In this document: piece by piece, positions 12,650 to 46,829 of the stretch
Position numbering within the stretch: the first letter of the stretch is position 1
How the letters are laid out: the number at the start of each line of letters is the position of its first letter
DNA from: Thereva unica
Lineage: Eukaryota; Arthropoda; Insecta; Diptera; Therevidae
Assembly (NCBI GenBank): GCA_949987705.1
Contig: CATLJY010000062.1
Span: 23,790 to 87,789 of the forward strand
Direction of reading: 5' to 3'
Length of the DNA stretch: 64,000 nucleotides
Position numbers and translations under genes: made by a program
Notes under the pieces: model-generated
The model's input: the letters and a program-made list of their open reading frames with translations, nothing else
What the model was told of the DNA's origin: nothing
The model's database searches: none

Positions 12650-13670
12650 AACTTCCCAGTATAGGAAGTTATTGTAATCGGTCCGAAAATCGAAATCGAA
12701 AATTTCAACGTATTTTCATCTTTCAAGGTCCCAGGAGCATTTTAAGCAAAAAATTGGGAGGAAGTATGTGCGTGTGTGTGTGTGTGTGTATGTGCGTACG
12801 GATGTGGTCATTTTTTCCTGCACGATAACGCGCGAACCAAAACTGATATCCACTTCGTTGAGGTGTCGTTCGAAGCGTATTAACCAAAATATGATCTGAA
12901 AAGATTTTCATGACATTCGGTCCAGCCGTTTTTTTGTTTAAGCGACGTTAGTGATTTTTGTACCTGCACGATATCGCCCGAACCACGAAAGATATTGACT
13001 TACTTGAGGTGCCGTTCGAAGCGTATTAGCGACAATATAATCTGAAAAGATTTTTATAGTATTCGGTCCAGCGGTTTTTTGGTTTAAATGACTTAAGTGA
13101 TTTTTGTACATGCACGATATCGCGCGAACTATAAAAAATATCGACTTAGTTGAGGCGCCGTTCGAAAAGTATTAACCAAAATATGATCTGAAAAGATTTT
13201 CATAAAATTCGGTCGAGCGTTTTTTTATTTAAGCGGTGTAAGTAATTTTTGTACCTGCACGATATGGCCCGAACCACAAAAGATATTGACTTACTTGAGG
13301 TGCCGTTCGAAGCGTATTAGCGACAATATATTCTGAAAAGATTTTTATAATATTCGGTCCAGCGGTTTTTTGGTTTAAATGACTTAAGTGATTTTTGTAC
13401 CTGCACGATACGGCGCGAACTAAAAACTATATCGACTTCATTGAGGTGCCGAAACACATTAATACCTAATCTTGTAAGTGCGCACATTTAGTTTGACATT
13501 TTAGCGAAAATATTGATAAACAATTGTGACGAATTCTCGGTATTATACATATATTCTATATTACCTATTGTTCATTTATTATTAAAATATCCAATCATAA
13601 TATTCAACAACCATCATACTGGGAAGTTGATCGTGTGGACCGAAAGGGTCGAACCCACATCCCAACTAGT
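12650..13670 (+). mobile_element. DINE-1/HINE-like non-autonomous rolling-circle element, copy 1
   Basis: The architecture matches DINE-1/HINE elements. The 5' subterminal repeat AACTTCCCAGTAT can fold with the following GGAAGTT. A block of about 110 bp leads to a (GT)n microsatellite at about 12,771-12,789. Five units of about 146 bp follow, starting near 12,807, 12,953, 13,098, 13,241 and 13,388. The 3' inverted copy ATACTGGGAAGTT is followed by a bulged hairpin (TGTGGACC...GGTC...CCACA) a few bases before CTAG. The downstream base is T in every complete copy here. There is no coding capacity. Confidence 0.85.
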
Positions 13671-14737
13671 TTTATTTAACATTCAAAAAAAAACTCATTT
13701 TCATTAAAAAATTTATACATAAAAATTGCCCTTTCAATTCTTAAATTCATTTAACTACACATATGTGTGTTTTAATACATTGCAAATTCAACCAAATCCG
13801 TAACATTTAGAAACTTAAAAAACAGGGTTATAACATAAGTTAAATGAGCACAGGTTGTCTTCCCACGTTGCAACCAAAAAATGTTTCTTTCACCACATTT
13901 ACATTCCACGAGGGACAAATTGCATTCCAAGAATTAATGACCTTCAGGTCATGACTAATTTTCCCTACAATTTTTGGTGTCCAAAAGCGCACGAATAAAT
14001 GAAACTGGCTGCTTAATGTTCCTGATTAAATAGGGTTTTGTGTCGATCGGCAGTTTTCCTATAACTTGTAAGCCGATATGCAGCGTATCCATAAATTTAA
14101 ACGTAATTATTTTGTTGTAAGAGTTTATAATTTTTGCGTCAACAAATTTCTAAAATTCTTTTCTTCATGAATTGTTTTTATTTTTCTTTTAAATGGTCTT
14201 AATTCTTTAAATTCTCCCTTTATTGCAGTTGCCATAATTTATGGATTGTGTAATTTATGATCTTCCTTATAGACATGCAACATCGATTTTATATCCCTTT
14301 TTAATATTTGCTGTTTCTCTCCCACTCACTGAGTAAATTTAAATATTAAAATTATTAAAATTCCCTTCAAGGGATTATTTTTCGCGGTTACCTGGCATTG
14401 CTGCCCTTTTGACATTCGGTTTTTCAGCTGATCCGCGATACAAAACATGAATGTCAGTTTCGGTTCGGTTGGTTTCATGGTTCGCAGTGGGCGCTAGTTT
14501 TTTATGTTTTCTTTCTCGCTTTTAGTGTTTTAGGTCACTAATATCTTCCTGGAAACATGTAAGTATTTTCCATGTTTTTATACACGCCTAAACGCTTGAG
14601 TTCCCTTATTTAGTTTTATATTAGGTAATGAAATTCTGTTTTGGTGGTGACAACTGTTAAAATGGGACTTCATTGTAAATACTCATTAAAATTCTCTTTT
14701 TCTGATATATCTAATTGTTTAATTCCTTTTATTTATT
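13671..14737 (+). other. Unrelated DNA captured between two rolling-circle elements
   Basis: This interval has none of the element's repeats, yet it is present, nearly unchanged, in both composite copies (inverted counterpart at 23,031-34,473 minus the LTR element). It carries a TCAGTT initiator-like site at 14,454-14,459 and a canonical 5' splice donor GTAAGTATT at 14,559, which would suit the first exon of a host gene. No protein-coding frame is recognisable. Confidence 0.6.
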
Positions 14738-15782
14738 AACTTCCCAGTATAGGAAGTTATTGTAATCGGTCCGAAAATCGAAATCGAAAATTTCAACGTA
14801 TTTTCATCTTTCAAGGTCCCAGGAGCATTTTAAGCAAAAAATTGGGAGGAAGTATGTGTGTGTGTGTGTATGTGCGTACGGATGTGGTCATTTTTTCCTG
14901 CACGATATCGCGTCAACCAAAACTGACATCGACTTCGTTGAGGTGTCGTTCGAAGCGTATCAACCGAAATATGATCTGAAAAGATTTTCATGAAATTCGG
15001 TCCAGCCGTTTTTTTGTTTAAGCGACGTAAGTGATTTTTGTACCTGCACGATATCGCCCGAACCACGAAAGATATTGACTTACTTGAGGTGCCGTTCGAA
15101 GCGTATTAGCGACAATATAATCTGAAAAGATTTTTATAATATTCGGTCCAGCGGTTTTTTAATTTAAATGACTTAAGTGATTTTTGTACCTGCACGATAT
15201 CCCGCGAACTATAAAAGATATCGACTTAATTGACGTGCCGTTCGAAGAGTATTAACCAAAATATGATCTGAAAAGATTAGCATAAAATTCGGTCGAGCCG
15301 TTTTTTTTGTTTAAGCGATTTTTTGTTTAAGTGATTTTTGTACCTGCACGATATGGCCCGAACCACAAAAGATATTGACTTGAGGTGCCGTTCGAAGCGT
15401 ATTAGCGACAATATAATCTGATAAGATTTTTATAATAATCCGTCCAGCGGTTTTTTGGTTTAAATGACTAAGTGATTTTTGTACCTGCACGATACCGCGC
15501 GAACTAAAAACTATATCGACTTCATTGAGGTGCCGAAAAACAATAACACATCAATTTTATATACATTTTCGTCATCCTAATCTTGTAAGTGCGCACATTT
15601 AGTTTGACATTTTAGCGAAAATATTTATAAACAATTGTGAAAAATTCTCGGTATTATACATATATTCTATATTGCCTATTGTTCATTTATTATTAAAATA
15701 TCCAATCATAATATTCAACATCCATCATACTGGGAAGTTGATCGTGTGGACCGAACGGGTCGAACCCACAGCCCTACTAGTT
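14738..15782 (+). mobile_element. DINE-1/HINE-like rolling-circle element, copy 2
   Basis: Same structure and orientation as the copy at 12,650: a terminal hairpin AACTTCC...GGAAGTT, a shorter (GT)n run near 14,856, internal ~146-bp units, an inverted ATACTGGGAAGTT near 15,728, and the bulged 3' hairpin with one loop change (ACCGAACGGGT). It ends in CTAG. Its inverted twin is 21,986-23,030 (also 1,045 bp). Confidence 0.85.
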
Positions 15783-15980
15783 ATTATTAAGTTTTAATTA
15801 TAATTGTTTATTTCTATGTTTCATAAATTCATTTTGTTATTACTTAGATTTAGGTTATGTTGTTATTGTTTACATTTAATTCATTTTATATTTCATTTTC
15901 TCTTCATTTTTTTAGCATTTGCTTGTATTATGGGGACCTATTTGCCTCCTTGAGGGTCCCAGCTCAGGAAAGTGCAAATA

Positions 15981-16646
15981 CAGTAGAAATCGGTTAACAT
16001 GAAATGGTGGGGCCGGGATGAGGATTTCGCGGTATCCGAATTTCGTATTAACCGTTGTCTTTGAAACACAACAATAATACCGAGTTAAAAACATACTGAA
16101 ACCCGGCTTTATCTAAAAAGTAAGTAGAAGTAAGTAAAAAAAAGAAACAGTAAAACAATTTAACTTTACTTATTCGCACAAAATACAAAAAAAAAAGCGT
16201 GGTGCACCGAAAATCAAAAACAGACTGAAGTTTTTCTTGAAAATTAACTAGATTAATTTTAGTCAACTTAACAACGACGCACTTGTTTCGGCGAATTCCC
16301 CATTTTCAAAAACATTAGGCCTATTGTGAACTTCGCTGGAACTTTCTTACCTCGTATGCTAAGAAAATTCAGGAAAGTTAGAATAGGACTGCATATTTAG
16401 GAGAAGCAGAGAACAAAATTAAACTTGACCTTCAAAAATATATGGGGAAAGAAATCATGAGAGAATTGGAGAAAATATGAACAAAATAAGCGCCACAGAG
16501 ACTCTTTTTTCGTGTTAAGCGAAGAGCGTTTCGCCATATCAGAACAAATTCGCATGAAAAGAATATTATAGGACCGGGACTACACTGTTTTTTCGTGTTA
16601 TGCAATATCTCGTGCTATCCGTTTTCGTGTTAAGTGAACTCCACTG
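15981..16646. mobile_element. pogo/Tigger-like MITE
   Basis: The element begins CAGTAGAAATCGGTTAACATG and ends with the imperfect inverted copy GTGTTAAGTGAACTCCACTG. It is flanked by TA on both sides (15,979-15,980 and 16,647-16,648), as expected for Tc1/mariner-pogo elements. The interior repeats CGTGTTAAGCGAA-type segments and codes for nothing. The 666-bp size and lack of transposase make it non-autonomous. Confidence 0.75.
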
Positions 16647-16648
16647 TA

Positions 16649-17681
16649 CCTTACTCTTTATTTCAAATTGTGATTTTTATTTTTTCTCTTTTAGTACTTG
16701 TGCCGAACACCAAGTTCGGGGAAAAGGTGCTGGTAGAGCTGGAGGATAGTAATATATACATACTTACCGGTGAGGTAAACTGACCTCTCTGATAGGGGAA
16801 TTAATTAAGGGGTAATATGCCATTGAGAAATAGGGAGAGAAGGGTAGTTACTTCGACTTCGTATTTAAGAAACGATCAGGAAATCCCCATGAACTGAATG
16901 TGGACGACAGTGAAGAGAACATTATTTTATCACAAAACAGAAAAAAATATTAAATCATGTAAAAACTGAAATTTTAAAAATAAAGTTCAATGTTTATATT
17001 TGATTTAAAAAATAAAAATAAAATGTTAAAATAATTTTTTTTTTAATGTATCAATCTGTAGTCATTTTCAGGTTTCCAGTTCTACTTTTGATGCTACCCA
17101 CAAAGTTTCAAAACCTACACCTCCCATGTACCCGTCCACCGAAAACCCATCTTACCGGTCCTAGGCCGTGACAGAGATTCCACGACCAACCAGCAGGTGA
17201 TTGATTGACGGCATTGACAGGTGATCATTGACCTTGACAGGTGATTGATGACTATGATAGGTGAGTGACCTAGTTTCGTGACGTAGAAAAAAGGTCCCAC
17301 ACTACAGGGGGCCCACCAACTACTTCTACACCCCTCATACCCATGATGTACCCGTCGAGCTATTGGGTTCTCAACATTCGCCCCCGCCGCCGCCCCGTCG
17401 TCAGCATCGCTAATACTTCCGCTGCACTTCCCTCCCCACCTCCGGACTTCAAATATCACCTTCGCGACGCCACAAGTGGGCGTGGCCTCACACACACAAC
17501 AATAAAAGCGATGACCTTGGTCTACACAAACAATTAATACGTCTGGCACACATTATTAGGTCACCCACTTACCATAATAACAGGTTAACGACTTGCCAGC
17601 CAATTGCCATAATTACAGGTGAATGACCTTGAAATTGACCTTGAGCTAGTTCTCATCGTCAACCGACCTAGTACCTACTCG
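16649..17681. other. Spacer with CAGGTGAT-type short repeats, no gene recognised
   Basis: At about 17,190-17,275 a short motif (GACAGGTGATTGA and variants) recurs several times. It reappears with changes near 17,580-17,630. The minus-strand open frame 17,115-17,549 has no domain and biased composition. Nothing else is identifiable. Confidence 0.4.
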
Positions 17682-17940
17682 CTTATGTCGCTTAAACCAA
17701 AAAACGGCTCGTCCTTTTCAGATCATATTTCCGTTAATACGCTTCCAACGACACCTCAACGAATCGTTATCTTTTTCGGTGCCCGCGGTATCGTGCAGGA
17801 AAAAATGACCACATCCGTACGCAAACACACACATACTTCCACCCAAATGTTTGCTTAAAATGCTCCTGGGACCTTGAAAAATGAAAATACGTTGAAATTT
17901 TCGAATTCGATTTTCGGACCGATTTCCTACTGGGAAGTTA
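17682..17940 (-). mobile_element. 5' fragment of a DINE-1/HINE-like element
   Basis: Reverse-orientation match to the first ~260 bp of the elements at 12,650 and 14,738: the ~146-bp unit start, the CA-rich microsatellite, the GCTTAAAATGCTCCTGGGACC-type block, and the terminal CTGGGAAGTT ending at 17,940. It is more diverged than the other copies and lacks the 3' part. Confidence 0.8.
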
Positions 17941-17989
17941 ATAATTGGATTTTTCCAAATTCATATGGTTCATCACATTAAAACAAAAT

Positions 17990-18760
17990 CATGCATTTTT
18001 AAAATTTTTGTCTGTCTGTCTGTTTGTTCGGGCTAATATCGGAAACGGCAAATCCGATTGGGATGGGACTTTCACTGGAAGTTGCAGTATTTTTGCGACC
18101 ATATTTTAGGCTAGTTGTATATCCTTTATATTAGCTTCATCTGTATGTGTGCATGTATGTATGTGTTTAGACAAATCTTACAACTCGAGTTTGACCTACT
18201 TACATATAACCGATCAACTTGAAATTTTGCATATATGTATAGTTCGCGTGACAATGCAATTTGACCATTTTGTAAAAAAAATCAATATGGCGGTTCCAAG
18301 ATGGCGGCTGAATTTCCCAATTGCGCCCCCCGACCCCCGACATGGGTATCAAATGAAAGGGGATGATATGTACAGTACAATTACATATTTGGTGTCATTC
18401 CAAATTCAAAATGGCGACCAACACAAAATGGCTTTAAAATGGATTAAGTTTTTCTATGCAACCCACTCGATATGGGTATCAAACGAAAGGATAATGCAAG
18501 TAGAATACTATTACCTGGGTGGCATCATTCCAATCTATCTTTATAAATATAAATGGCGTATCTGTCTGTGATTTTAAAATAAAATTGTGTTTTACTAAGT
18601 TCATATGGTTATCGATCTTTCTATATTAATATAATTGGAATGTCTGTCTGTACAAAAACTAATTTTAAAATTTTTGTCTGTCGGTATTGCGATGGGACTT
18701 TCACTGGAAGGTTCTGTGCTTTTGCGGCCATATTTCAGGCACATACGACTATCAGATCCG
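17990..18760. repeat. Degenerate interspersed repeat, two related halves
   Basis: The segment GATGGGACTTTCACTGGAAG, preceded by TTTTGTCTGTC, occurs at about 18,061 and again near 18,691, followed each time by a CGGCCATATTT-type block. Between them, 'GGGTATCAAA(T/C)GAAAGG' occurs twice (near 18,342 and 18,473). This is a repetitive, non-coding sequence of unknown class, not a gene. Confidence 0.5.
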
Positions 18761-20205: not shown

Positions 20206-20210
20206 CCGGA

Positions 20211-20298
20211 ATGTAAAAAAGCGTGGGCGCTAGCTAAAAGTTCTGGTGTTAATGAAACAAGAATACATATAGGTAAATAGCGCCACGCTTTTTTACAT
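20211..20298. repeat. 88-bp imperfect hairpin
   Basis: Arms 20,211-20,232 (ATGTAAAAAAGCGTGGGCGC plus TA) and 20,278-20,298 are reverse complements apart from one extra base, with a loop of about 45 bp. It could be a short MITE or foldback scrap; an RNA role is not supported. Confidence 0.6.
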
Positions 20299-20471
20299 CG
20301 TCCACCAGGAGGCATTGTCCGCCCTTTTTTAATTAATCTCATACTGCCCAAAATACGTGCAGATAAAAGGGTGGTAGCTCATAAAGTATCTATTAAAGAT
20401 GTTAACGGACTGGAACGGCAAAATTTCAGAAATAAAAAACAATTATTTTGGGGAGTAGATGTTTTATTGGT

Positions 20472-20625
20472 ATAGATTTCGGGCAAACGTTGCCAGTTGT
20501 CCCGACAGATACGCGGGCCGTTGCAAGTTATGCAGGTCTAAAATGATCACTCATTTAGGGACAGATTGAAAAACGTCCTTTAAAACAAAATATGCGAGGG
20601 CAATCAGAAAACTCAGAATTCAATA
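20472..20625 (+). pseudogene. Pif1/Helitron helicase fragment, decayed
   Basis: The frame reads DFGQTLPVVP, the helicase motif III region (normally GDFRQ.LPVV), then TRAVASYAGLK, two stops, and LKQNMRGQSENSEF, matching the conserved NMR...ENEEF block of Helitron-type Pif1 helicases. It stops abruptly at about 20,625, where the GCGTTCCATTGG motif begins. It differs from the Helentron helicase fragments further right and comes from another family. Confidence 0.65.
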
Positions 20626-20700
20626 CTACGTGCGTTCCATTGGGCGATATTTGCTACTCCGGAGTACTCCCGAGGACCTCCAACTACCCCTGCTCTTGTT

Positions 20701-21827
20701 GTGGGGGATTTCACTCCGGTCTGGAAAAAAGCCATAGTGATCCCCTTACCAAAAAAGTCGTCACCCTCGGACTTAGCCGATTTTCGTCCTATCAGCATTC
20801 TTCCATTTCTTGCTAAGGCCTTTGAGAAAACTCTCTTTATGCAAGTCCTCCCTTATCTTGAAACCAATAATTTCCTTTGTAAATTCCAATCTGGTTTCCG
20901 TAAATCCCATAGCTGTGAGACTGCTGTTTTAAAGGTGACTACTGATCTTCGTTCTGCGCTCGACCTGGGTGACTTTGCGATATTGGTCCTTCTTGATTTT
21001 TCTAAGGCTTTCGATTCTGTGGTGCACTCAGTTTTACTTTCCAAACTTAGTCAGCGCTACCACTTTTCATCTTCTGCTACTCGCCTTATCTCTTCCCTTC
21101 TTACCAATAGGCTTCAATGTGTTCGCCATAATAGCTCTTTATCCTCTTTCCTTCCCGTGCCCTTGGGAGTACCGCAAGGCTCAATTCTTGGCCCTCTCCT
21201 TTTCTCTTTGTATATTAATGACCTTCCCTCTATAATTCGTCACTGCTCCTTCCACCTGTATGCTGATGATCTCCAACTATACACCTCATGTCCTCCGAAT
21301 CAGATTGAATCCTGTATTTCTCAACTTAATAGTTCCTTATCCCAAATAAGTGAATGGAGTTCTATCAACTTCCTTAAACTAAATCCTAAAAAATCTCAAG
21401 TACTTCTGCTTAGCCGTCGTTTTCAGTCCCCTGACAGCATTCCGCCTGTCCTACTTAATGGTATTCCCCTCCCTATTCTTGAGCGTGTTAATAATCTTGG
21501 CATTGTCATTAATTCCAAATTATCTTGCTGTAATCAAGTCTCACTTATGCTTTCCAAGATTTATGGGACACTGCGAAAGCTTTGGCTTTATGGTAGTCTT
21601 CTGTCGACCGCTGTTCGGCTCAAGCTTGTTAAATCCCTCATCGTACCACATTTCCTCTTTGGTTCCCTTCTATATATTTCCTTAGATTCAGCCTGCCGAC
21701 AGCGCCTTAAAGTAGCTTTCAATGATTGCTTAAGATACATTTTTCATATGCGAAGGTCAGATCATGTGTCGAGTATACAAAATTCCTTGCTAGGTTGTGA
21801 CCTCTTTCGTTTTATTGATGTCATGGC
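20701..21827 (+). pseudogene. LINE reverse transcriptase, N-terminal and central part
   Basis: Non-LTR reverse transcriptase, which copies its RNA at a nicked target. Visible motifs in order are DFRPISILPFLAKAFEK, DFSKAFDSVVHSVLL (motif A), PLGVPQGSILGPLLFSLYIN (motif B) and the catalytic YADDLQLY at about 21,258-21,281, then the thumb region LKLNPKKSQ. Sequence character fits the CR1/L2-like branch rather than RTE or R2; this is by eye. The frame runs into the inserted hAT end after DVMA, so the listed open frame beyond 21,827 is not LINE. Confidence 0.85.
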
Positions 21828-23182
21828 TAGGGCTTACAATACCGGGATTTCGGGATCCCGAATACCGGAATCCCGGACGATTTTTGTCCGTTATTAAAAA
21901 CCGGTATTTATGTAAAAATACCGGTATTTTGGTATTACATTAGTTGATAAAAATTTAATTTATGCACAATATAAATCTAATTTAAAACTAGTAGGGCTGT
22001 GGGTTCGACCCGTTCGGTCCACACGATCAACTTCCCAGTATGATGGATGTTGAATATTATGATTGGATATTTTAATAATAAATGAACAATAGGCAATATA
22101 GAATATATGTATAATACCGAGAATTTTTCACAATTGTTTATAAATATTTTCGCTAAAATGTCAAACTAAATGTGCGCACTTACAAGATTAGGATGACGAA
22201 AATGTATATAAAATTGATGTGTTATTGTTTTTCGGCACCTCAATGAAGTCGATATAGTTTTTAGTTCGCGCGGTATCGTGCAGGTACAAAAATCACTTAG
22301 TCATTTAAACCAAAAAACCGCTGGACGGATTATTATAAAAATCTTATCAGATTATATTGTCGCTAATACGCTTCGAACGGCACCTCAAGTCAATATCTTT
22401 TGTGGTTCGGGCCATATCGTGCAGGTACAAAAATCACTTAAACAAAAAATCGCTTAAACAAAAAAACGGCTCGACCGAATTTTATGCTAATCTTTTCAGA
22501 TCATATTTTGGTTAATACTCTTCGAACGGCACGTCAATTAAGTCGATATCTTTTATAGTTCGCGGGATATCGTGCAGGTACAAAAATCACTTAAGTCATT
22601 TAAATTAAAAAACCGCTGGACCGAATATTATAAAAATCTTTTCAGATTATATTGTCGCTAATACGCTTCGAACGGCACCTCAAGTAAGTCAATATCTTTC
22701 GTGGTTCGGGCGATATCGTGCAGGTACAAAAATCACTTACGTCGCTTAAACAAAAAAACGGCTGGACCGAATTTCATGAAAATCTTTTCAGATCATATTT
22801 CGGTTGATACGCTTCGAACGACACCTCAACGAAGTCGATGTCAGTTTTGGTTGACGCGATATCGTGCAGGAAAAAATGACCACATCCGTACGCACATACA
22901 CACACACACACATACTTCCTCCCAATTTTTTGCTTAAAATGCTCCTGGGACCTTGAAAGATGAAAATACGTTGAAATTTTCGATTTCGATTTTCGGACCG
23001 ATTACAATAACTTCCTATACTGGGAAGTTAATAAATAAAAGGAATTAAACAATTAGATATATCAGAAAAAGAGAATTTTAATGAGTATTTACAATGAAGT
23101 CCCATTTTAACAGTTGTCACCACCAAAACAGAATTTCATTACCTAATATAAAACTAAATAAGGGAACTCAAGCGTTTAGGCG

Positions 23183-25247
23183 TATAACGGTCGGTTGAAA
23201 ATTTATTTTAATTGGGCAATTTATTTTGGAATCAACCTGTAAGGGGAAATTTCGCTCAAAATCACTTGGTACTAAAAAGGGAAATTTTAAGAAGTAGGCG
23301 AGGAAAGAAAAAAACAAAAATAGAGGAAAGAAAAATTTGACAGTCAGTTCCTAGAGTTTTTGCCGAGAGGTTAGCAAGTTTTTTTGCGGTCCGTTGGGAG
23401 AGCCTTAGTCCCGATTTAGTCGGTCAGTTCTCGAAAGTTTTTTATCAGTCCGAGTTAGTCCGAGGTTTGTGAGACAGTTTTTTGGAATACCGAAATAAAA
23501 TTCCCTTCGCTCGGGAAAAAATTGGTAAAACAAAAAAACTCGTTGTCCGGGTGTAAGATTGGTTGTGACGAAATAACTAGGGGCGGCTACCGTGTTAACT
23601 CCCAAACTGATGGCAAGCTAGAAAGTAAACCGAAAGCGTCAAAAACGAAGAAAAAGTAAAACCAACCAAAAGGGCTCGAGAAACCAGCGACGAAGAATCC
23701 TGCTTTTCATTTACCGGAGACAAAAAGGACTGGCATCATATGTGAAGCAAGGCGGTCATTCTACATCCAGCGGCAAATTTCGAAAGAGGATATTTGGTGC
23801 TATTCTTTTTATCAATTGGATTGCACATCTGGTTGTCAACCTGAAATCGGCGCAGTTTCTCAAGAGGGTAACAAAATTTCGCAGTATTAACACGGAAGTG
23901 ATTGGCTGCACTGGTGATTCTCATTTTTGGCATTACTGGAACCACCGCGTGAGGTTAGCGGTGTATTAAAGGTAAATATCCCACTATTGAGCGTTAATAC
24001 CCACATAATATCGAAGGAGTGCGGAATATATATGGAAGAAGGGGGCCTTCATTGCGGGCACCTTTCAGTATTAATCATCGAGGTATTTTACGGCAGATTA
24101 CTATTAATGAGTGACTTGGTGGCAGATCTGTTGATGAAATTCGGCGCCTGGTGAACGCGTTTCCAGTTACGGATAGTTATGGTGAACAGGCATTCCCAGG
24201 GCTACCGAGCCTTATCTACAATATGCTAAGGGGCTCGCTTTGGTTTTATCAGGAAGAAATAAAGAAAGTTAATCCTTTGACTTTGTCCGAGGACGAATGG
24301 AAATAGGTGTCGTATGTTAGTACATTTGAAGATTTTTGATTACCTGTTTTGTTCGTGAGTACGCCACAAAATCAGAGAAAATAAAAAAAATATACAATAA
24401 ATATATAAAGAAAACAAAAAAAAAACACAGACATACACAAGAGAAAATAACAGTTTCATTTTATCTCTATATAAAAATTTTAATTGCCTTATATTGTTAA
24501 TTTTAACCTTATTTATCTTTGTTTATACATTTGATTGGACTTTATTAGAAATATTTTTTTATCTTGATGTTTACAGGTAAATAGATTTTCTTTAATTGCA
24601 TCCTTGAGTTAAGATATCTTTTGTAAAAAAAAACGAAACGACGCAATGGTACCACGGCGACGTGTTTTTTTAATCTTTCGTAATTATTGAAGTATACGTA
24701 CTGGTACAGTACTGTTTTGTTTGAATGTGAGAATTTTGAATGGTTTATGGTTAATTAATATCGAATTGTATTGAATTACCTTCTTTTTGGTGATACCTGT
24801 AACAGACAGAAAATATTAAAGGATTGAAATGATAATTGCCATGGGTTAAAGTTTTTTTTTGAATGGTTGGGGCGGAATGTATCTCTTTCAGGGTTCTTAA
24901 GTAGTGCCTTTCCTTGTCAGCTGGTGGTTATCCAGACTATGAGCTGGCAAGGGACCGCACTACAGGACACGGCACAGGCGAGGACCGGAAAATGATGGAG
25001 GCGGAATCCAAAGTTGCACAGGCACAGGTAAGTGGTGAACCAACCGCGGTAAGGCCCGGCCACACACCCCACGTCCCCTCCGGCGAGCTAGATAACTCCG
25101 TGTGGCCGGTGTAGGAGTTCCGGATTTTCTTTTTATTTCTTGTGTCTGGTGTTGGCTCCTTGGCCATGCTCTTCCGGGCTTGTGGCTAAGGGGGTAACAC
25201 CTCGCATAAGTGGCGCCCACTATTTTCTCGCGCCATTATGCTGGTAC
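23183..25247 (+). repeat. 5' LTR (about 2,065 bp)
   Basis: Begins TATAACGGTCGG and ends GCTGGTAC. Only a one-base length difference in an A run near 24,416-24,425 was noticed against the 3' LTR, so integration was recent. AATAAA occurs near 24,258. Short open frames inside (for example 23,742-23,969) have no recognisable domain. A TGGCGCCCA sequence lies inside the LTR at 25,211, some 40 bp before the real primer site. Confidence 0.93.
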
Positions 25248-25252
25248 ATAAA

Positions 25253-25264
25253 TGGCGCCCAACG
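25253..25264 (+). promoter_or_regulatory. Primer-binding site, tRNA-Lys type
   Basis: TGGCGCCCAACG, five bases after the LTR end, is complementary to the 3' end of an arthropod tRNA-Lys including its CCA (from memory of tRNA-Lys(CTT), which ends CGTTGGGCG-CCA). It primes minus-strand DNA synthesis. Confidence 0.8.
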
Positions 25265-26628
25265 CAGCTTTTAAAGCCCGTTGACGGTCCTACACGGACC
25301 CTGAAGTTTAAATTTTTTTTGGTTTAGTACCACTTGTGCCTTCACGGACAACGTTTGATTTTTTTGTTTATGGTTCACCACTTTTACCCAGCGCTCGCTG
25401 TGGGCTAAGGTAGTACCGCGAAGCCTTAGTCCTTGTCTGTCTTGTCGATTTTTTTTCAGCATCTGTGTCCAAATTCTAGGTGAATTTTTATTTGTCTTCG
25501 CTTTTAGGCCTACCCGTTCTATTCAGCGGTAACTTCTTCTTTTTGGAGTAGCTTCGAACCATGCTGACCTGCACGGCTTGCTAACAAGCGGTGTTCGCTT
25601 GGCTATGCGTGCAGGTGTAGTAGTGGTTCATCTTTGTCCTGTTTCTAGGGTCGGCGACTCTGGTATCAGGCGTGATACCGCCTGCCACTGCGTCGGTCCG
25701 TGAACAGGATCTTCTTTTAATTTTTCCTGATGGAAGGTGAAGTTGGTACAAGGGCTTAACCGTCTTTGGTAACAGGCGTGTTACCGCCTGCCACTGCGCC
25801 CCTTGTTCCTTCTGATGGTCCATCCAGCTTTTTAAATTCTAATTTTTTGTTTACGTCCTGAGTTTTTTCCGTCTGGTTCATCCCAACTGATTGATTTTCC
25901 GAAAGGTAGCTCAGTTGTGATTGAACAGCGGATTCCCCAAATTTTTTTTATTTCTGAAGAAGTTTCCCTTTCGTGACTATGCCCTTTGACTTTTTGTTTC
26001 CGTCCTTCGTTCGGGGCAGACCTGAAGCTGGGTCGGCGACCTGGATGACACCTGGTGATGACTATGCTTCATAGTTTTCACCAGCTGGCATCGAGGCCAT
26101 CGACATGCGGGAGCCCTGAGGGGAAATGTTATCCGTCTCAACCATTCCTCGCTTATATTGAATTAAAGTACATAATCAACTCACCTACACTACCATATAT
26201 AGGCACTAATACACTTTTGCTGTTGTATCGCTATTCACTAATCAGCGTGGGCTGGGTTTTCTTTGAGGTACACTCACATACTCTCAATATTTAATTGATT
26301 TGTTAGTAGGCACTTGTTGTTATACGAATTGCTGTTGATTTGATTGGCTGTTCTATTTGAATTTATTTTCACACAATTTTTTTTTCCTTTCCTTCTTCGA
26401 ACCTTCTGTGCTTGTTGGGTAGAAGAACGTATACCGTTGGTAGCTACTATTGTAGATATTTGTTGGCATAAACTGTTTGTGAGTACAACCGCGAGTTCGT
26501 GTTCGGGATTACTCTGCGTGTGGGCAATAATTTTTCATATTCTTTGTTATCTAATTTTTGTGTACTTCCTTGGTGCTCGAGTTCGAGTATAGTCTGAGTG
26601 GGTTGTGATTATATCCTGGGATTAGACT
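25265..26628 (+). other. Retrotransposon 5' leader with repeated stem-loops
   Basis: A 1.36-kb untranslated leader between primer site and gag. Two near-identical segments at about 25,668-25,692 and 25,772-25,796 carry AGGCGTGATACCGCCT (or TT in the second) followed by GCCACTGCG; AGGCG and CGCCT can pair as a hairpin. Position and repetition would suit a packaging or dimerisation signal, which is inference. Open frames in this stretch have no motifs. Confidence 0.55.
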
Positions 26629-27726
26629 ATGGAGCTCAGAAGTGGAAGGACTGCAGGTACCACTTCTGGTGGAGGCAATCTCCCTAACGGAACCGAAGCC
26701 GGCCAGGGGGACTCACCAACCTTCCCCAACCCTACTCCTTCGCTGGAGGAGCAAGTTGCCCAGTTGAGGCAGGTTTTAGATACCCTGCTAATGCAGCAGC
26801 GACCTGCTGAGGTCCCTATGAACCTTGGGGTACCCAGGGATCAGCAGTCCACCCCGGAGGCGTCCCCACCTGCGGTCGGCAGGTTAGATTTCTTGCCAGG
26901 GACCCAACATCGCAAGTCTCCAGTTACGTTCTGGAATTTAAAATTCTCCGGCGAGGACAAAATGTTGTCGGCGGAGGAGTTTCTGTTCCGGGTGGAGCTG
27001 AAGGCTCGCGATGATGGAGTCCAGCAATCAGAAGTCTGCCGACATTTTTCTTCCTTGTTGTCTGGGCGAGCCACCGACTGGTACTGGTCGCAGTTTCGGC
27101 GCAAATTTTTAGATCCTGACTGGGAAACAGTTAAAGCCCATTTCATTCGCTATTTCCGAAGTCGCGAGTCGGATGAGGAACTAATATTGCAAATGATGGA
27201 CTGTAAGCAACACAATCTGTCTTTCGATGATTTCACTGCTCAGATGTTATCCCTGCACAACCGCATGGATAATCCCATGTCGGAAACAAGTCTGATCGGG
27301 ATAGTAATCCGAAACCTAAATTTTGCCTTGGGGTCAGCCGTAATCGGTCACAGCTTCACCAGCATGCCACAGTTGCGTGAGACTTGTATTAAAGTCGAAC
27401 GCTGGCAAACACAAAAGCGATTGGAACGTAGACCCGACCGACAAGTTCATGAGGTTAATTACTCGACGAACCCCGTAACAACGGACATGACTGCCCCAGA
27501 GATAGACGAAGTGACGGCGCCGCGTCAGAACCAGAGTAATCCACGACCGCTCCGGTGTTGGAATTGCCAGCAACCGGGTCATCCATTTATGGACTGCCCG
27601 TCTGAAACTCGTGGCCTGTTTTGCTACAAGTGTGGCAAGCCAGGAGTCGTCACACCAGTATGCCCCACCTGCCAGGGAAACCGGAGCCGGGGTGTGAGAC
27701 AGTACGGGAGTCCGCGCCCGAGCTAA
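26629..27726 (+). CDS. gag: Gag protein of the Osvaldo/Ulysses-like retrotransposon
   Basis: A 365-residue structural protein that would form the virus-like particle in the cytoplasm. A proline/glycine-rich N-terminus (1-90) leads to a retrotransposon-gag capsid domain (about 95-250; SGRATDWYWSQFRRKF and FDDFTAQMLSLHNRM are visible). The C-terminal nucleocapsid has a canonical CX2CX4HX4C knuckle, CWNCQQPGHPFMDC. A second knuckle, CYKCGKPGVVTPVC, has valine in place of the zinc-binding histidine. The ATG at 26,629 is the first in a long open frame after the leader. Pol overlaps its end in the -1 frame. It appears intact. Confidence 0.9.
   Translation: MELRSGRTAGTTSGGGNLPNGTEAGQGDSPTFPNPTPSLEEQVAQLRQVLDTLLMQQRPAEVPMNLGVPRDQQSTPEASPPAVGRLDFLPGTQHRKSPVTFWNLKFSGEDKMLSAEEFLFRVELKARDDGVQQSEVCRHFSSLLSGRATDWYWSQFRRKFLDPDWETVKAHFIRYFRSRESDEELILQMMDCKQHNLSFDDFTAQMLSLHNRMDNPMSETSLIGIVIRNLNFALGSAVIGHSFTSMPQLRETCIKVERWQTQKRLERRPDRQVHEVNYSTNPVTTDMTAPEIDEVTAPRQNQSNPRPLRCWNCQQPGHPFMDCPSETRGLFCYKCGKPGVVTPVCPTCQGNRSRGVRQYGSPRPS
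27675..27681 (+). promoter_or_regulatory. GGGAAAC -1 ribosomal frameshift heptamer
   Basis: The sequence is read G GGA AAC in the gag frame, the required X XXY YYZ phase, inside the gag/pol overlap and about 45 nt before the gag stop. Shifting -1 here enters the pol frame, which is open across this point. The downstream sequence is GC-rich and could fold, but I did not model it. Confidence 0.7.
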
Positions 27727-30700
27727 GCTCGCCCGTTTTCCCTACACATTCTTCATATACACCAGATATGACTACCATCAGCGACTTTACGTCAACTGAT
27801 GCTCTTCCTGTTTTTCCCTCAGAGGAGGTTAAACTTTCGTTCCTTTCCCGTTGGAAGAGATATATCTCCACTCGTGCCCGCATCTTTTCGGAGCCACCTT
27901 TCGTGGACTCCCTCACTTCCAAGCGCACCCCTCCCCAAATTAGAGTACGAGCTAAGGAGAAGCGACAATGTTTGCAGAAAATTGTTTCTGCCTTCATCTC
28001 GGATTCGTCAGATCCTCGTCTGTTTACGAAGGTCCTCATAGCTAATGAGGAAGTGGTTGGGTTGTTGGACAGTGGTGCCACTGTTAGCTGTTTGGGAAGA
28101 GATGCCGAAGCGTTTCTAGCGAATCATCCCGAAGTGACAGTCTGCACTTTGCGCTCTGTAGTGCATACTGCTGACGGGGCTCCGCAGAGACTTTGCGGTT
28201 ATATTCGAGTTCCAATCTCCTTTGGAGGAAGGACCCGGGATATAACCATCTATGTGGTGCCCAGTCTCAGCCAGAGACTGTACCTAGGGATGGATTTCTG
28301 GAATCTTTTCGGCCTAGCTCCCCAAATAGTCGGCGAGATAAACGCTCCATCCGTGTCTGCAAAAATGCACGACTTAACGTCTACGCAATGCGAACGGTTG
28401 GAACGCGTCAAGGCCAGATTTCCCTCCTTCGATGTCTTCGGACTGGGAAAGACTAACCTGGAGGAACACATCATTGACACTGGTGACTCAGTTCCTATTA
28501 AACAGAGGCATTATCCGGTCTCACCCGCTGTACAACAGCTGATGTATGGTGAGTTAGACAGGATGCTGTCGCTGGGGGTGATTGAGCCATCAAATAGTCC
28601 CTGGAATTCTCCAGTGGTGTTGGTTCGTAAACCAGGTAAGGTCCGCCTGTGCCTTGACTCTCGCAAGGTGAACAGTGTCACTATCAAAGACGCCTATCCT
28701 CTTCCACACATTGATGGTCTACTTGGTCGTCTTCAAGACACCAAGTTCATCACGAGCTTAGACCTGAAGGACGCCTTCTGGCAAATCCCTTTAGAGATGA
28801 AGTCGCGAGAGCGGACAGCTTTCACTGTCCCCGGTCGTCCACTGTACCAGTTCACAGTTATGCCTTTCGGCTTATGTAACGCCCCACAGCGCATGTGTCG
28901 CTTGATGGATAAGACCATCCCGGGCCATTTACGTGAAAACGTTTTTGTCTATCTGGACGACCTGCTCATAGTTTCACCTGACTTTGACTCCCACCTAAAG
29001 CTTTTGGACGAAGTGGCCAGCTGTCTCCGTCGTGCGGGGTTAACCATCAATTTATCTAAAAGCAAATTTTGCGTGACTGAAGTCAAGTATCTCGGCTTCA
29101 TAATCGGTGATGGGACTCTGAAAACCGATCCTAACAAGGTGACGGCCATCATGGACTTCCCGACTCCGAAGTCTCATAAGCAGACCCGGAGGTTTTTGGG
29201 AATGACCGGATGGTATCAGCGTTTCATACCCAATTATGCTAGCGTGGCTTCTCCAATCACGGATTGTTTGAAGTCTAAATCTTTTAGTTGGACTGATGAG
29301 GCCCAGCAGTCGTTCGAGACTTTGAAAAAGCTGATGACAGAAGCTCCTCTGTTAGTCACTCCAGATTTTTCTAAGCCTTTCTATATTCAGTGCGATGCCA
29401 GCAGGACTGGTGTAGGTAGTGTGCTCTTTCAAAAGGACATGGATGGAGGAGAACATCCGATTGCTTATATGTCCAAGAAATTGAACGGAGCACAACGGAA
29501 CTACACCATTACTGAGCTCGAATGCTACGCAGCCGTGCTGAGTATAAAGAAGTTTAGAGCGTATGTTGAGGGACAGACTTTCACGGTCATTACTGACCAT
29601 GCAAGTCTGAAATGGCTCATGAGCCAGAAAGAGCTTAACGGTCGTTTAGCCCGGTGGAGTCTTAAGCTTCAGGGGTTCGACTTTACGATCGAACACCGTA
29701 AAGGCACCCACAATGTGGTTCCCGATGCCTTGTCACGCATGGATTGCGTTGACGAATTGTCCTTGTGTTTCGACGTGGACTTAAATGCCCCGTCTTTCAA
29801 GTCCCGTGAATATCTTCGTCTGGGTGATAGCCTCAGGCAAGCCTCACCGCAGCTACCAGACCTGCGAGTTGAAGATGGGTACGTTTTCAAGCGTACATCA
29901 CCACGTACTGGAAACCCGATTGCTGACGACCTGACATGGAAGTTGTGGATTCCGATGGAAATGACCGCGTCGCTCGTCGAATCATCTCATTCGCCTCCCC
30001 AAGCATCGCATGGTGGAGTAAGGAAAACCCTAGCCCGATTGCGATGCAAGTACTTTTGGCCAGGTATGGCAAAACAAGTTCGGGAGTTCATCGGTAAGTG
30101 TGATGTCTGCAAAACCACCAAAGCCCCCAGCTCAGTACTTCGACCACCTATGGGAAACCCCATGGATGTGTCGAGGCCGTTCCAATTTTTATACGTCGAT
30201 TTCTTAGGTCCTTATCCCAGGTCGAAGAAAGGCCACACGGCAGTATTTGTTGTATTGGATGCTTTCACCAAGTTTGTCTTCCTGCACCCCGTGTCCGCTG
30301 AGACCACGGCGGTGTCCGTCAAGTTTCTTGAGCAAACTATCTTTCATACCTTTGGAGTTCCTGAAACGGTCTTCTCCGACAATGGTCGGCAATTCACCTC
30401 CAAAGAGTTTGCTAAATTGTTGACCGACTATGGCGTGCACCATGTGCGCACGGCTGTATATTCGCCTCACCCTAACGCTTCCGAGCGGGTGAATAGATCC
30501 ATCCTAACCGCCATTAGGGCGTACTTAAAGGAGGATCATCGTGAGTGGGATAGACATCTGTCGTCCATTGAATGTGCTCTTCGTAGTACCCACCACGAGG
30601 CGATCGGCATGTCCCCGTATCAGGCCCTGTTTGGTAGCCACATGATCCTGCACGGATCAGCATATCCAGTCCTGAAGAAACTGAACGTTTTACAGGAGGG

Positions 30701-31016
30701 TGACATAGCTTTTCTACCATTGACGGACAAAATGCAGATGCTTCGTGAGCGGATTGCTGTTAATTTAGCCGCCGCACACATCAGACATAAAACCCAATAC
30801 AACTTGCGGTGTCGTGTGGGCAGTTTTCGTCCCGGAGAGGAGGTTTACCGGAGAACTTTCTGGGTGAGTAACCGAGCGGGTCGTTTCAGTGCCAAGTTAG
30901 CACCCCGGTTCTTGAAAGCTCGGATACGTAAAAAAATTGGAACCAGCTTGTACGAGCTGGAGGATTTGGGAGGTAAGAGCATAGGGGTATATCACGCCAA
31001 AGACCTACGACGTTGA
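27675..31016 (+). CDS. pol: Pol polyprotein: protease, reverse transcriptase, RNase H, integrase
   Basis: An open frame of 1,131 codons (27,621-31,016), used from the frameshift site. Aspartic protease: GLLDSGATVSC at about residue 146. Reverse transcriptase: CLDSRKVNSVTIKDAYPLPH, MPFGLCNAPQRMCRLM and catalytic YLDDLL at about 443. RNase H: QCDASRTGVGS at about 590 and TDHASLKWL at about 657. Integrase: an HHCC finger (H..H at about 790-797, CDVC at about 827), then catalytic D (YVDFLGP), D (FSDNGRQF) and E (NASERVNR). Domain order RT-RNaseH-integrase defines Ty3/Gypsy. No chromodomain is evident. No stop or frameshift was seen, so the element may be active. Confidence 0.93.
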   Translation, partial: GKPEPGCETVRESAPELSSPVFPTHSSYTPDMTTISDFTSTDALPVFPSEEVKLSFLSRWKRYISTRARIFSEPPFVDSLTSKRTPPQIRVRAKEKRQCLQKIVSAFISDSSDPRLFTKVLIANEEVVGLLDSGATVSCLGRDAEAFLANHPEVTVCTLRSVVHTADGAPQRLCGYIRVPISFGGRTRDITIYVVPSLSQRLYLGMDFWNLFGLAPQIVGEINAPSVSAKMHDLTSTQCERLERVKARFPSFDVFGLGKTNLEEHIIDTGDSVPIKQRHYPVSPAVQQLMYGELDRMLSLGVIEPSNSPWNSPVVLVRKPGKVRLCLDSRKVNSVTIKDAYPLPHIDGLLGRLQDTKFITSLDLKDAFWQIPLEMKSRERTAFTVPGRPLYQFTVMPFGLCNAPQRMCRLMDKTIPGHLRENVFVYLDDLLIVSPDFDSHLKLLDEVASCLRRAGLTINLSKSKFCVTEVKYLGFIIGDGTLKTDPNKVTAIMDFPTPKSHKQTRRFLGMTGWYQRFIPNYASVASPITDCLKSKSFSWTDEAQQSFETLKKLMTEAPLLVTPDFSKPFYIQCDASRTGVGSVLFQKDMDGGEHPIAYMSKKLNGAQRNYTITELECYAAVLSIKKFRAYVEGQTFTVITDHASLKWLMSQKELNGRLARWSLKLQGFDFTIEHRKGTHNVVPDALSRMDCVDELSLCFDVDLNAPSFKSREYLRLGDSLRQASPQLPDLRVEDGYVFKRTSPRTGNPIADDLTWKLWIPMEMTASLVESSHSPPQASHGGVRKTLARLRCKYFWPGMAKQVREFIGKCDVCKTTKAPSSVLRPPMGNPMDVSRPFQFLYVDFLGPYPRSKKGHTAVFVVLDAFTKFVFLHPVSAETTAVSVKFLEQTIFHTFGVPETVFSDNGRQFTSKEFAKLLTDYGVHHVRTAVYSPHPNASERVNRSILTAIRAYLKEDHREWDRHLSSIECALRSTHHEAIGMSPYQALFGSHMILHGSAYPVLKKLNVLQEGDIAFLPLTDKMQMLRERIAVNLAAAHIRHKTQYNLRCRVGSFRPGEEVYRRTFWVSNRAGRFSAKLAPRFLKARIRKKIGTSLYELEDLGGKSIGVYHAKDLRR

Positions 31017-31343
31017 TTTTCCTCAAGGTTCCATCTTCATTTCTTTTATTTTTGGTCAGGCTGTGGGTGTACCTCGGCGAACTAGTTGCCTGTCGTCCTA
31101 CTGGGGTGAGTCACATGCAATGTGGGATTGCGTGAGATTAACTCCATGGTACGAGAGGAAACCGGTTCGGGCGAGAATGTCTGTAAGTTTACAGGAGCCG
31201 GAGGGGGACAATATGGAATTGCCTTCAGCCGGATCCTGGTACTTCCAGATATTCTTCCGAGTGATCTACGGACTGCTCCACCTTTTCAAAGTTGGCATAA
31301 TCACTCCTCTAACCTTGTACCGTATTACGACTGTTACATGTAT
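31017..31343 (+). other. Retrotransposon 3' non-coding segment
   Basis: Between the pol stop and the tRNA-like sequence. Two overlapping frames of 79 and 96 codons (31,063-31,361) lack any envelope signature such as a signal peptide plus transmembrane anchor, so no env gene is claimed. Confidence 0.5.
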
Positions 31344-31412
31344 GCCCGGCTAGCTAACTAGCGCATGAGACTCCTATTCTCAGGTCGTGAGTCGAGTCCC
31401 ACATTGGCGCCA
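31344..31412 (+). tRNA. tRNA-Lys-derived sequence inside the retrotransposon (not a functional gene)
   Basis: This 69-nt stretch matches, segment by segment, the arthropod tRNA-Lys(CTT) sequence as I remember it: acceptor/D-arm start GCCCGGCTAGCT, anticodon arm GCATGAGACTC..ATTCTCAGG, T-arm TCGTGAGTCGAGTCCCAC, and 3' end TTGGCGCCA including the CCA, which eukaryotic tRNA genes do not encode. D-loop bases and several single bases are missing, so it would not fold normally. It lies 77 bp before the 3' LTR of an element whose primer site is complementary to tRNA-Lys, suggesting capture of its own primer. Confidence 0.75.
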
Positions 31413-31489
31413 AAGATATTTGATCTACGGCGACCGTTTTTTTTCGGCTCCTCACTGCCTCGCGAGTCGGCTTTGTGGACCCGAGGGTA

Positions 31490-33555
31490 TATAACGGTCG
31501 GTTGAAAATTTATTTTAATTGGGCAATTTATTTTGGAATCAACCTGTAAGGGGAAATTTCGCTCAAAATCACTTGGTACTAAAAAGGGAAATTTTAAGAA
31601 GTAGGCGAGGAAAGAAAAAAACAAAAATAGAGGAAAGAAAAATTTGACAGTCAGTTCCTAGAGTTTTTGCCGAGAGGTTAGCAAGTTTTTTTGCGGTCCG
31701 TTGGGAGAGCCTTAGTCCCGATTTAGTCGGTCAGTTCTCGAAAGTTTTTTATCAGTCCGAGTTAGTCCGAGGTTTGTGAGACAGTTTTTTGGAATACCGA
31801 AATAAAATTCCCTTCGCTCGGGAAAAAATTGGTAAAACAAAAAAACTCGTTGTCCGGGTGTAAGATTGGTTGTGACGAAATAACTAGGGGCGGCTACCGT
31901 GTTAACTCCCAAACTGATGGCAAGCTAGAAAGTAAACCGAAAGCGTCAAAAACGAAGAAAAAGTAAAACCAACCAAAAGGGCTCGAGAAACCAGCGACGA
32001 AGAATCCTGCTTTTCATTTACCGGAGACAAAAAGGACTGGCATCATATGTGAAGCAAGGCGGTCATTCTACATCCAGCGGCAAATTTCGAAAGAGGATAT
32101 TTGGTGCTATTCTTTTTATCAATTGGATTGCACATCTGGTTGTCAACCTGAAATCGGCGCAGTTTCTCAAGAGGGTAACAAAATTTCGCAGTATTAACAC
32201 GGAAGTGATTGGCTGCACTGGTGATTCTCATTTTTGGCATTACTGGAACCACCGCGTGAGGTTAGCGGTGTATTAAAGGTAAATATCCCACTATTGAGCG
32301 TTAATACCCACATAATATCGAAGGAGTGCGGAATATATATGGAAGAAGGGGGCCTTCATTGCGGGCACCTTTCAGTATTAATCATCGAGGTATTTTACGG
32401 CAGATTACTATTAATGAGTGACTTGGTGGCAGATCTGTTGATGAAATTCGGCGCCTGGTGAACGCGTTTCCAGTTACGGATAGTTATGGTGAACAGGCAT
32501 TCCCAGGGCTACCGAGCCTTATCTACAATATGCTAAGGGGCTCGCTTTGGTTTTATCAGGAAGAAATAAAGAAAGTTAATCCTTTGACTTTGTCCGAGGA
32601 CGAATGGAAATAGGTGTCGTATGTTAGTACATTTGAAGATTTTTGATTACCTGTTTTGTTCGTGAGTACGCCACAAAATCAGAGAAAATAAAAAAAATAT
32701 ACAATAAATATATAAAGAAAACAAAAAAAAAAACACAGACATACACAAGAGAAAATAACAGTTTCATTTTATCTCTATATAAAAATTTTAATTGCCTTAT
32801 ATTGTTAATTTTAACCTTATTTATCTTTGTTTATACATTTGATTGGACTTTATTAGAAATATTTTTTTATCTTGATGTTTACAGGTAAATAGATTTTCTT
32901 TAATTGCATCCTTGAGTTAAGATATCTTTTGTAAAAAAAAACGAAACGACGCAATGGTACCACGGCGACGTGTTTTTTTAATCTTTCGTAATTATTGAAG
33001 TATACGTACTGGTACAGTACTGTTTTGTTTGAATGTGAGAATTTTGAATGGTTTATGGTTAATTAATATCGAATTGTATTGAATTACCTTCTTTTTGGTG
33101 ATACCTGTAACAGACAGAAAATATTAAAGGATTGAAATGATAATTGCCATGGGTTAAAGTTTTTTTTTGAATGGTTGGGGCGGAATGTATCTCTTTCAGG
33201 GTTCTTAAGTAGTGCCTTTCCTTGTCAGCTGGTGGTTATCCAGACTATGAGCTGGCAAGGGACCGCACTACAGGACACGGCACAGGCGAGGACCGGAAAA
33301 TGATGGAGGCGGAATCCAAAGTTGCACAGGCACAGGTAAGTGGTGAACCAACCGCGGTAAGGCCCGGCCACACACCCCACGTCCCCTCCGGCGAGCTAGA
33401 TAACTCCGTGTGGCCGGTGTAGGAGTTCCGGATTTTCTTTTTATTTCTTGTGTCTGGTGTTGGCTCCTTGGCCATGCTCTTCCGGGCTTGTGGCTAAGGG
33501 GGTAACACCTCGCATAAGTGGCGCCCACTATTTTCTCGCGCCATTATGCTGGTAC
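31490..33555 (+). repeat. 3' LTR (about 2,066 bp)
   Basis: Same sequence as the 5' LTR apart from one extra A in a homopolymer near 32,722-32,732. It is followed by AGGCG, the target duplication, and then by the captured spacer of the rolling-circle composite. The purine tract before it (CCGAGGGTA) is weak as a polypurine tract. Confidence 0.93.
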
Positions 33556-35896
33556 AGGCGTGTATAAAAACATGGAAAATACTTACATGTTTCCAGGAAG
33601 ATATTAGTGACCTAAAACACTAAAAGCGAGAAAGAAAACATAAAAAACTAGCGCCCACTGCGAACCATGAAACCAACCGAACCGAAACTGACATTCATGT
33701 TTTGTATCGCGGATCAGCTGAAAAACCGAATGTCAAAAGGGCAGCAATGCCAGGTAACCGCGAAAAATAATCCCTTGAAGGGAATTTTAATAATTTTAAT
33801 ATTTAAATTTACTCAGTGAGTGGGAGAGAAACAGCAAATATTAAAAAGGGATATAAAATCGATGTTGCATGTCTATAAGGAAGATCATAAATTACACAAT
33901 CCATAAATTATGGCAACTGCAATAAAGGGAGAATTTAAAGAATTAAGACCATTTAAAAGAAAAATAAAAACAATTCATGAAGAAAAGAATTTTAGAAATT
34001 TGTTGACGCAAAAATTATAAACTCTTACAACAAAATAATTACGTTTAAATTTATGGATACGCTGCATATCGGCTTACAAGTTATAGGAAAACTGCCGATC
34101 GACACAAAACCCTATTTAATCAGGAACATTAAGCAGCCAGTTTCATTTATTCGTGCGCTTTTGGACACCAAAAATTGTAGGGAAAATTAGTCATGACCTG
34201 AAGGTCATTAATTCTTGGAATGCAATTTGTCCCTCGTGGAATGTAAATGTGGTGAAAGAAACATTTTTTGGTTGCAACGTGGGAAGACAACCTGTGCTCA
34301 TTTAACTTATGTTATAACCCTGTTTTTTAAGTTTCTAAATGTTACGGATTTGGTTGAATTTGCAATGTATTAAAACACACATATGTGTAGTTAAATGAAT
34401 TTAAGAATTGAAAGGGCAATTTTTATGTATAAATTTTTTAATGAAAATGAGTTTTTTTTTGAATGTTAAATAAAACTAGTTGGGATGTGGGTTCGACCCT
34501 TTCGGTCCACACGATCAACTTCCCAGTATGATGGTTGTTGAATATTATGATTGGATATTTTAATAATAAATGAACAATAGGTAATATAGAATATATGTAT
34601 AATACCGAGAATTCGTCACAATTGTTTATCAATATTTTCGCTAAAATGTCAAACTAAATGTGCGCACTTACAAGATTAGGTATTAATGTGTTTCGGCACC
34701 TCAATGAAGTCGATATAGTTTTTAGTTCGCGCCGTATCGTGCAGGTACAAAAATCACTTAAGTCATTTAAACCAAAAAACCGCTGGACCGAATATTATAA
34801 AAATCTTTTCAGAATATATTGTCGCTAATACGCTTCGAACGGCACCTCAAGTAAGTCAATATCTTTTGTGGTTCGGGCCATATCGTGCAGGTACAAAAAT
34901 TACTTACACCGCTTAAATAAAAAAACGGCTCGACCGAATTTTATGAAAATCTTTTCAGATCATATTTTGGTTAATACTTTTCGAACGGCGCCTCAACTAA
35001 GTCGATATTTTTTATAGTTCGCGCGATATCGTGCATGTACAAAAATCACTTAAGTCATTTAAACCAAAAAACCGCTGGACCGAATACTATAAAAATCTTT
35101 TCAGATTATATTGTCGCTAATACGCTTCGAACGGCACCTCAAGTAAGTCAATATCTTTCGTGGTTCGGGCGATATCGTGCAGGTACAAAAATCACTAACG
35201 TCGCTTAAACAAAAAAACGGCTGGACCGAATGTCATGAAAATCTTTTCAGATCATATTTTGGTTAATACGCTTCGAACGACACCTCAACGAAGTGGATAT
35301 CAGTTTTGGTTCGCGCGTTATCGTGCAGGAAAAAATGACCACATCCGTACGCACATACACACACACACACACGCACATACTTCCTCCCAATTTTTTGCTT
35401 AAAATGCTCCTGGGACCTTGAAAGATGAAAATACGTTGAAATTTTCGATTTCGATTTTCGGACCGATTACAATAACTTCCTATACTGGGAAGTTAATAAT
35501 ATTAATTAATTACAAGAAATTTTTTTTGAAGATAAACAAACAATTTCACTGTATTGAAATCTATATCAGGCACATTTATTACACATACCGAGCCGAGTAT
35601 GGCACCATCGAAAAGCGGCGGTGTCGGGAATATAAAGCGATTGTTTATGTTTTACGTCTACTACCCAATGAATAAGGCTCGTTTATACAAATACCACTGA
35701 CATATAGTAATGGACTGCTAAATGAGCAAAATACCATACAAAAATATGGCACCAAAAACTATTCCTGCCTCGCTCCCACGTTAAATCCCAATGAACTGTA
35801 ATCGTCAGCGTCAACATAGAATTTACATAAATATGTACTTTTTTTTACTTTACCGTTTTTTTTTGTATCTATCTATTCCTACTCTCTATGTAATAA

Positions 35897-46827: not shown

Positions 46828-46829
46828 AT

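Follow-up and report, generated by a model that had tools for sequence, protein, structure and literature searches.

Can two rolling-circle elements carry the DNA between them to a new site as one unit? The question is raised by the window (the whole stretch of 64,000 nucleotides of Thereva unica DNA analyzed here), in which two units share one layout, an element followed by a 1067-bp spacer and a second element in the same orientation. The units, called A and B, are inverted relative to each other and lie 6.2 kb apart.

Two copies of one composite unit

The features of the two units are the following.

12650-15782, plus strand: unit A, consisting of HINE1, the 1067-bp spacer and HINE2; the donor
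12650-13670, plus strand: HINE1 of unit A, with the 5' end AACTTCCCAGTATAGGAAGTT, an inverted 13-mer, a CTAGT 3' end and 146-bp central repeats
13671-14737, plus strand: spacer of unit A, the middle of a BEL/Pao LTR according to genome matches and to the LTR structure and domains of the related copy L018
14738-15782, plus strand: HINE2 of unit A, including the shared T after CTAGT, recognized by its end features; carries a private 3' end variant
35494-21986, minus strand: unit B, with the same layout, split by a Ty3-type LTR element at 23183-33556; the product
34475-35494, minus strand: copy of HINE1 in unit B, from the alignment to A and its end features
23030-34474, minus strand: copy of the spacer in unit B, interrupted by the Ty3-type LTR element
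21986-23029, minus strand: copy of HINE2 in unit B, including the T common to both units, from the alignment, its end features and the private 3' variant
23183-33556, plus strand: Ty3-type LTR element in the spacer of B, with Ty3_capsid, RT, RNase H and integrase matches and the target duplication GGCG

We aligned A (12650-15781, 3132 bp) base by base with B (the reverse complement of 21987-23182 joined to 33561-35494, 3130 bp). The 3129 aligned bases contained no substitution and were accompanied by four gap columns, which places the 95% upper limit of divergence at about 0.1% by a rule-of-three estimate. The colinear copies were found where the initial annotation had placed them. The net length difference of 2 bp that it gave was also correct, but the single GT repeat offered as its cause was replaced by three indels: a GT unit near 12772, a single C following 13217 and a single T at 15301, located in the GT repeat and in or beside homopolymers.

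Similarity between the units begins at the HINE1 5' end and stops at the HINE2 3' end, exactly as first described, and the flanks immediately outside are unrelated in A and B; homology past the element ends was looked for, and none was found. A single T after CTAGT is common to both units, and the ends 15782/21986 and 15781/21987 are equally defensible. A search for more copies of the spacer within the same ends yielded A and B alone, as no others matched at 99 to 100% among the best 40 of 74 candidates.

The LTR element reported to interrupt the second copy is the Ty3-type element listed above. Its two LTRs (23183-25248 and 31490-33556) differ by no substitution and one gap column, and its junctions in B show the 4-bp duplication GGCG. 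This element entered the spacer of B after the move from A to B.

Ends and family of the HINE elements

The elements show a constant order of features: the AACTTCCCAGTATAGGAAGTT start, a GT microsatellite, the 146-bp central repeats (4.4 copies in HINE1 and 4.4 in HINE2), the inverted 13-mer, a short palindrome and CTAGT. The subterminal inverted repeats are identical over at least 11 bp: AACTTCCCAGTAT marks the 5' end, and ATACTGGGAAGTT lies about 41 bp before the 3' end. Together with a T-rich target that is not duplicated, these inverted repeats, central repeats and microsatellite bear out the assignment to a DINE-1/HINE-like family. Relative to the empty sites of B, HINE2 and HINE C (an older element described below), there is an extra T alone and no other target duplication, and even this T vanishes if the end is read as CTAGTT, in which case it may belong to the element. 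The HINE1 site lies within a T run whose length varies among LTR copies. Canonical Helitrons start with TC at the 5' end and insert between A and T. The elements here start with AACTT and are flanked by T on both sides; thus, their ends appear to fit HINEs or Helentrons and not canonical Helitrons.

The 3' end carries the palindrome GGGTCGAACCC, and its hairpin folded no better than shuffled sequence, with z-scores for HINE1 and HINE2 of -0.46 and 0.14 over 63 nt and of -0.42 and -0.16 over 41 nt; the terminator is therefore known by its letters and position only. The first element's 3' terminator had been claimed to lie inside both copies, and the HINE1 CTAGT end is indeed present in each, with no substitution between A and B. 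We also considered a visibly broken HINE1 terminator, but its letters are ordinary and it folds like that of HINE2, so that, in the simplest reading, a terminator of normal appearance was bypassed.

With indels left out, 41 of the 1008 positions aligned between HINE1 and HINE2 disagree; the two are therefore separate copies, and a recent tandem duplication does not account for them. HINE C is apart from HINE1 at 33 of 747 positions and from HINE2 at 22 of 746. All three share their first 121 bases. Three letters of the HINE2 3' end are not those of the ordinary end, with only six bases after the last of them, and this variant occurs twice in the 910-Mb genome, at A and at B only. The 21-letter HINE 5' end occurs 4416 times as an exact match in the same 910 Mb (2223 + 2193). 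The reversed control gave no hits in either count. The end motifs had no matches in viral_contigs or genome_contigs, and an Rfam scan of the window at gathering scores gave none.

One relative in the window is a candidate autonomous partner.

58478-62566, minus strand: Helentron-like family copy in which HINE central repeats flank PIF1, UvrD_C_2 and weak endonuclease matches, with a diverged HINE 3' end

The endonuclease match scored 20.8, under the Pfam cutoff of 24.5, and the 5' end of the HINE family was looked for in this copy and not found. Named relatives of the helicase are mostly from arthropods (Atheta/Dalotia coriaria, 76%; Cordylochernes scorpioides, 78%). Helentron helicase sequence is also surrounded by inverted arms of 695 bp with 100% identity (37815-38509 and 40563-41257), which represent either a fold-back structure or an assembly artifact.

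The window holds further repeats. A 24-bp repeat in 40 copies with 97% matches (7280-8240) lies within long open reading frames on both strands, and a satellite-like array at 4418-6407 has a 117-bp unit in about 17 copies with a higher-order period of 353 bp. An LTR element at 46357-52535 contains gag-like and integrase frames and was recently inserted, since its two 471-bp LTRs are identical.

The donor locus

The DNA around unit A belongs to the same retroelement as the spacer.

10567-12426, plus strand (coding sense minus): BEL/Pao internal region beside the LTR of A, with matches at 10567-11244 and from 11714/11716 on
12427-12649, plus strand: LTR outside HINE1 at A, without counterpart at B
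15782-15981, and again 16647-16709 after a 665-bp insert, plus strand: LTR outside HINE2 at A, without counterpart at B

The spacer had been taken for about 1.07 kb of unrelated DNA present in both copies. Its length of 1067 bp in both held, whereas "unrelated" did not, because the spacer comes from the middle of a BEL/Pao LTR that is dispersed in the genome: it has at least 47 matches in its own genome, taken from the best 40 of 74 candidates, several of them paired about 7.6 kb apart, and copy L018 forms with L019 a full element whose two LTRs are identical over 1600 bp. An opposite-strand frame of 1737 amino acids in L018 matches a Pao peptidase, DUF1759, RT and DUF5641. A captured gene or promoter, considered for the splice-like and initiator-like letters of the spacer, was set aside, as the spacer proved to be part of an LTR that is read from the opposite strand.

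By this reading sense, the LTR at A is a 5' LTR and that at L010 a 3' LTR. The L010 copy (L010:4688-7055, C68:14688-17055), on the same contig as A, is the closest LTR copy to that of A, with 97% identity over 12427-12649, and the two may be partner LTRs of one retroelement.

A search for the spacer without the elements found the HINE1 site uninterrupted in 15 distinct LTR copies and the HINE2 site in 15, among the 18 loci compared, which were stretches around spacer matches; each count is 16 alignment rows less one overlapping duplicate. No copy spanning either site among these loci carried an element there. At the HINE2 site, the LTR letters of L014 and L015 read ACTAGT and resemble a HINE end; both differ from L023 by little more than one G, and we take the resemblance as chance. 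To judge from these sequences, HINE1 and HINE2 probably entered the LTR of A as separate insertions. Other HINEs occur in the same LTR family at L022:7837-8581 (spacer position 512/513) and at L026:4268-4979 (86 bp beyond the spacer), which makes this LTR family a repeated HINE target.

The LTR is continuous through the ends of the unit at A and not at B; thus, the direction was from A to B, and B cannot be the source of A.

The empty target at the product locus

Unit B lies in a short element of another kind, which itself contains a third HINE.

21828-36766, no strand assigned: hAT-like MITE hosting unit B, with the TIR TAGGGCTTACAATACCG and the 8-bp duplication GTCATGGC at 21820-21827 and 36767-36774
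35898-36644, minus strand: HINE C, an older HINE inside the same MITE as B, also present in L031 and L032

The MITE letters around B are 21828-21986, 35495-35897 and 36645-36766. We joined the flanks of B and searched the genome with them. In the best 40 of 2896 candidates, at least 6 cross the junction, 2 are the window's own and 32 match the LINE part only. The six MITE copies are uninterrupted at the B site, with identities of 93.5 to 98.6% and no target duplication beyond one ambiguous T. They show that the site existed empty and do not measure how frequently, because the joined query favors uninterrupted copies and the best 40 of 2896 were compared. The B site is thereby the third insertion site, after those of HINE1 and HINE2, with an empty form. 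HINE C is present with an empty B site in L031 and L032, and it is absent from L029, L030 and L034. The 8-bp duplications are exact for the window copy, L030, L031 and L032 and have a one-letter mismatch for L029, while for L034 and L036 the comparison did not cover both ends.

The LINE beside the MITE has a reverse transcriptase frame at 20701-21897, and the LINE search returned no close named match for it. Elsewhere in the window, the open reading frame 53143-54213 encodes a hAT dimerization domain.

Order of events and alternative explanations

In the favored reading, the order would begin with the BEL/Pao element at A, into whose LTR HINE1 and HINE2 would have inserted independently; at the other site, a LINE and then the MITE, with HINE C, would have been in place before the copy from A to B. 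A putative Helentron transposase would have begun copying at the HINE1 5' end, passed the HINE1 3' terminator, continued through the LTR segment and HINE2 and halted at the HINE2 3' terminator. The composite would then have inserted, inverted, at a T-rich site of the hAT-like MITE 6.2 kb away, forming locus B, and the Ty3-type element would have entered its spacer as the last step. The copied block extends from the 5' end of the upstream element to the 3' end of the downstream element and occupies a new site known in empty form, as a composite event implies. We infer a rolling-circle intermediate from the element ends and target sites, and the same inferred scheme comprises read-through of the terminator, completion of the move in one direct step and the origin of the transposase. 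Composite Helentron-type rolling-circle copying from A to B, started at HINE1, led past its terminator and stopped at HINE2, is in our judgment highly probable, with A as the donor and B as the product. The composite transposition proposed in the initial annotation is thus supported by the ends and by the empty LTR and MITE sites, with a rolling circle as the presumed carrier.

The strongest rival is gene conversion, in which a single HINE stood at B first and repair of a break from A imported HINE1, the spacer and HINE2. Inverted copies 6.2 kb apart make conversion plausible, and the 5' side does not discriminate, as the first 121 bases are shared by HINE1, HINE2 and HINE C. The 3' side does, however: since the HINE2 3' variant is private to A and B, any conversion tract, or any switch in assembly, must end within the last six bases. 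The three HINEs are also 3 to 4% apart, yet B contains no foreign letter, and in the best 40 of 2896 candidates no MITE copy other than that of the window itself carries a HINE at the B site. We therefore regard conversion as improbable. An artifact, by which one copy would owe its existence to a false join or to the collapse of a repeat in a small contig, would suit a repeat-rich contig of 87.8 kb that ends where the window ends, and the differences between A and B, being indels in a GT repeat and homopolymers, are of the usual consensus-error type. Against it, the flanks of B close up to a MITE that is uninterrupted and bordered by matching 8-bp duplications, B has an LTR element and a duplication of this element that are its own, and the private 3' variant extends to six bases before the flank of B. 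Moreover, no second LINE-MITE junction (query 1-507) and no other allele appeared among the best 40 of 2896 candidates, and we consider an artifact very unlikely.

Template switching during replication commonly yields local inverted duplications, and such a switch, or a segmental duplication, could have copied the block from A to B without a transposase. Both breakpoints, however, are HINE ends, the target MITE is whole apart from one ambiguous T, and the LTR that flanks A on both sides was left behind, so this explanation seems to us extremely improbable. Neither a segmental duplication nor a false join of haplotypes explains why the flanks of B form a MITE that is uninterrupted at six other places.

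Comparison with known systems

The HINE/DINE-1 elements and Helentrons described in the available part of PMC4067079 resemble those found here in their 13-bp subterminal inverted repeats, short 5'-side inverted repeat, microsatellite, central repeats, 3' palindrome (here by its letters) and T-rich target without duplication. That text mentions missed termination or composite transposition among the ways in which capture could occur, but the composite route is proposed there without a resolved donor-product pair. The same bypass model is given in the consulted part of a review (PMC6431247), where the next termination signal may be that of the host or of a downstream Helitron, as a statement without a locus; thus, the capture model invoked initially, read-through to a downstream terminator, is in print in both sources (PMC4067079, PMC6431247). 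Multiple element ends in one place, as at A and B, are also known from Helitrons of maize (PMC2267711) and Fusarium (PMC5148889), where composites are considered products of adjacent insertion or self-insertion. The maize pair differs in being explained by two independent insertions (PMC2267711), and the passages available from both papers describe no joint copy with an empty target. In the portions of the open-licence literature that we saw, we found no description of a donor-product composite HINE pair.

In one stated model of how rolling-circle transposons capture DNA, bypass comes to an end at a downstream member of the family. Donor, product, empty element sites and an empty product target at one locus are, in our judgment, rare, and this locus establishes which way the unit moved and exactly which ends were used. 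It can also serve as a template for genome scans that measure how frequent bypass is. We have seen one composite event. It is conceivable, though we would rather doubt it, that any two same-strand HINEs could act as a composite transposon, that ordinary-looking 3' terminators are often bypassed so that LTR pieces and host DNA are copied repeatedly, and that A and B are one case of many among the 4416 5' ends.

The closest experimental counterpart is Helraiser (PMC4778049), for which the accessible text reports terminator bypass at about 11.7% with an intact end. As proposed for A and B, copying can run past its 3' terminator and take along the DNA that follows. In contrast, Helraiser is a canonical Helitron studied in cell culture whose new end is an alternative downstream sequence, while the second end here is the complete terminator of another family member. 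Overall, this kind of event has been proposed in print before, and A and B represent an unusually complete natural case of it.
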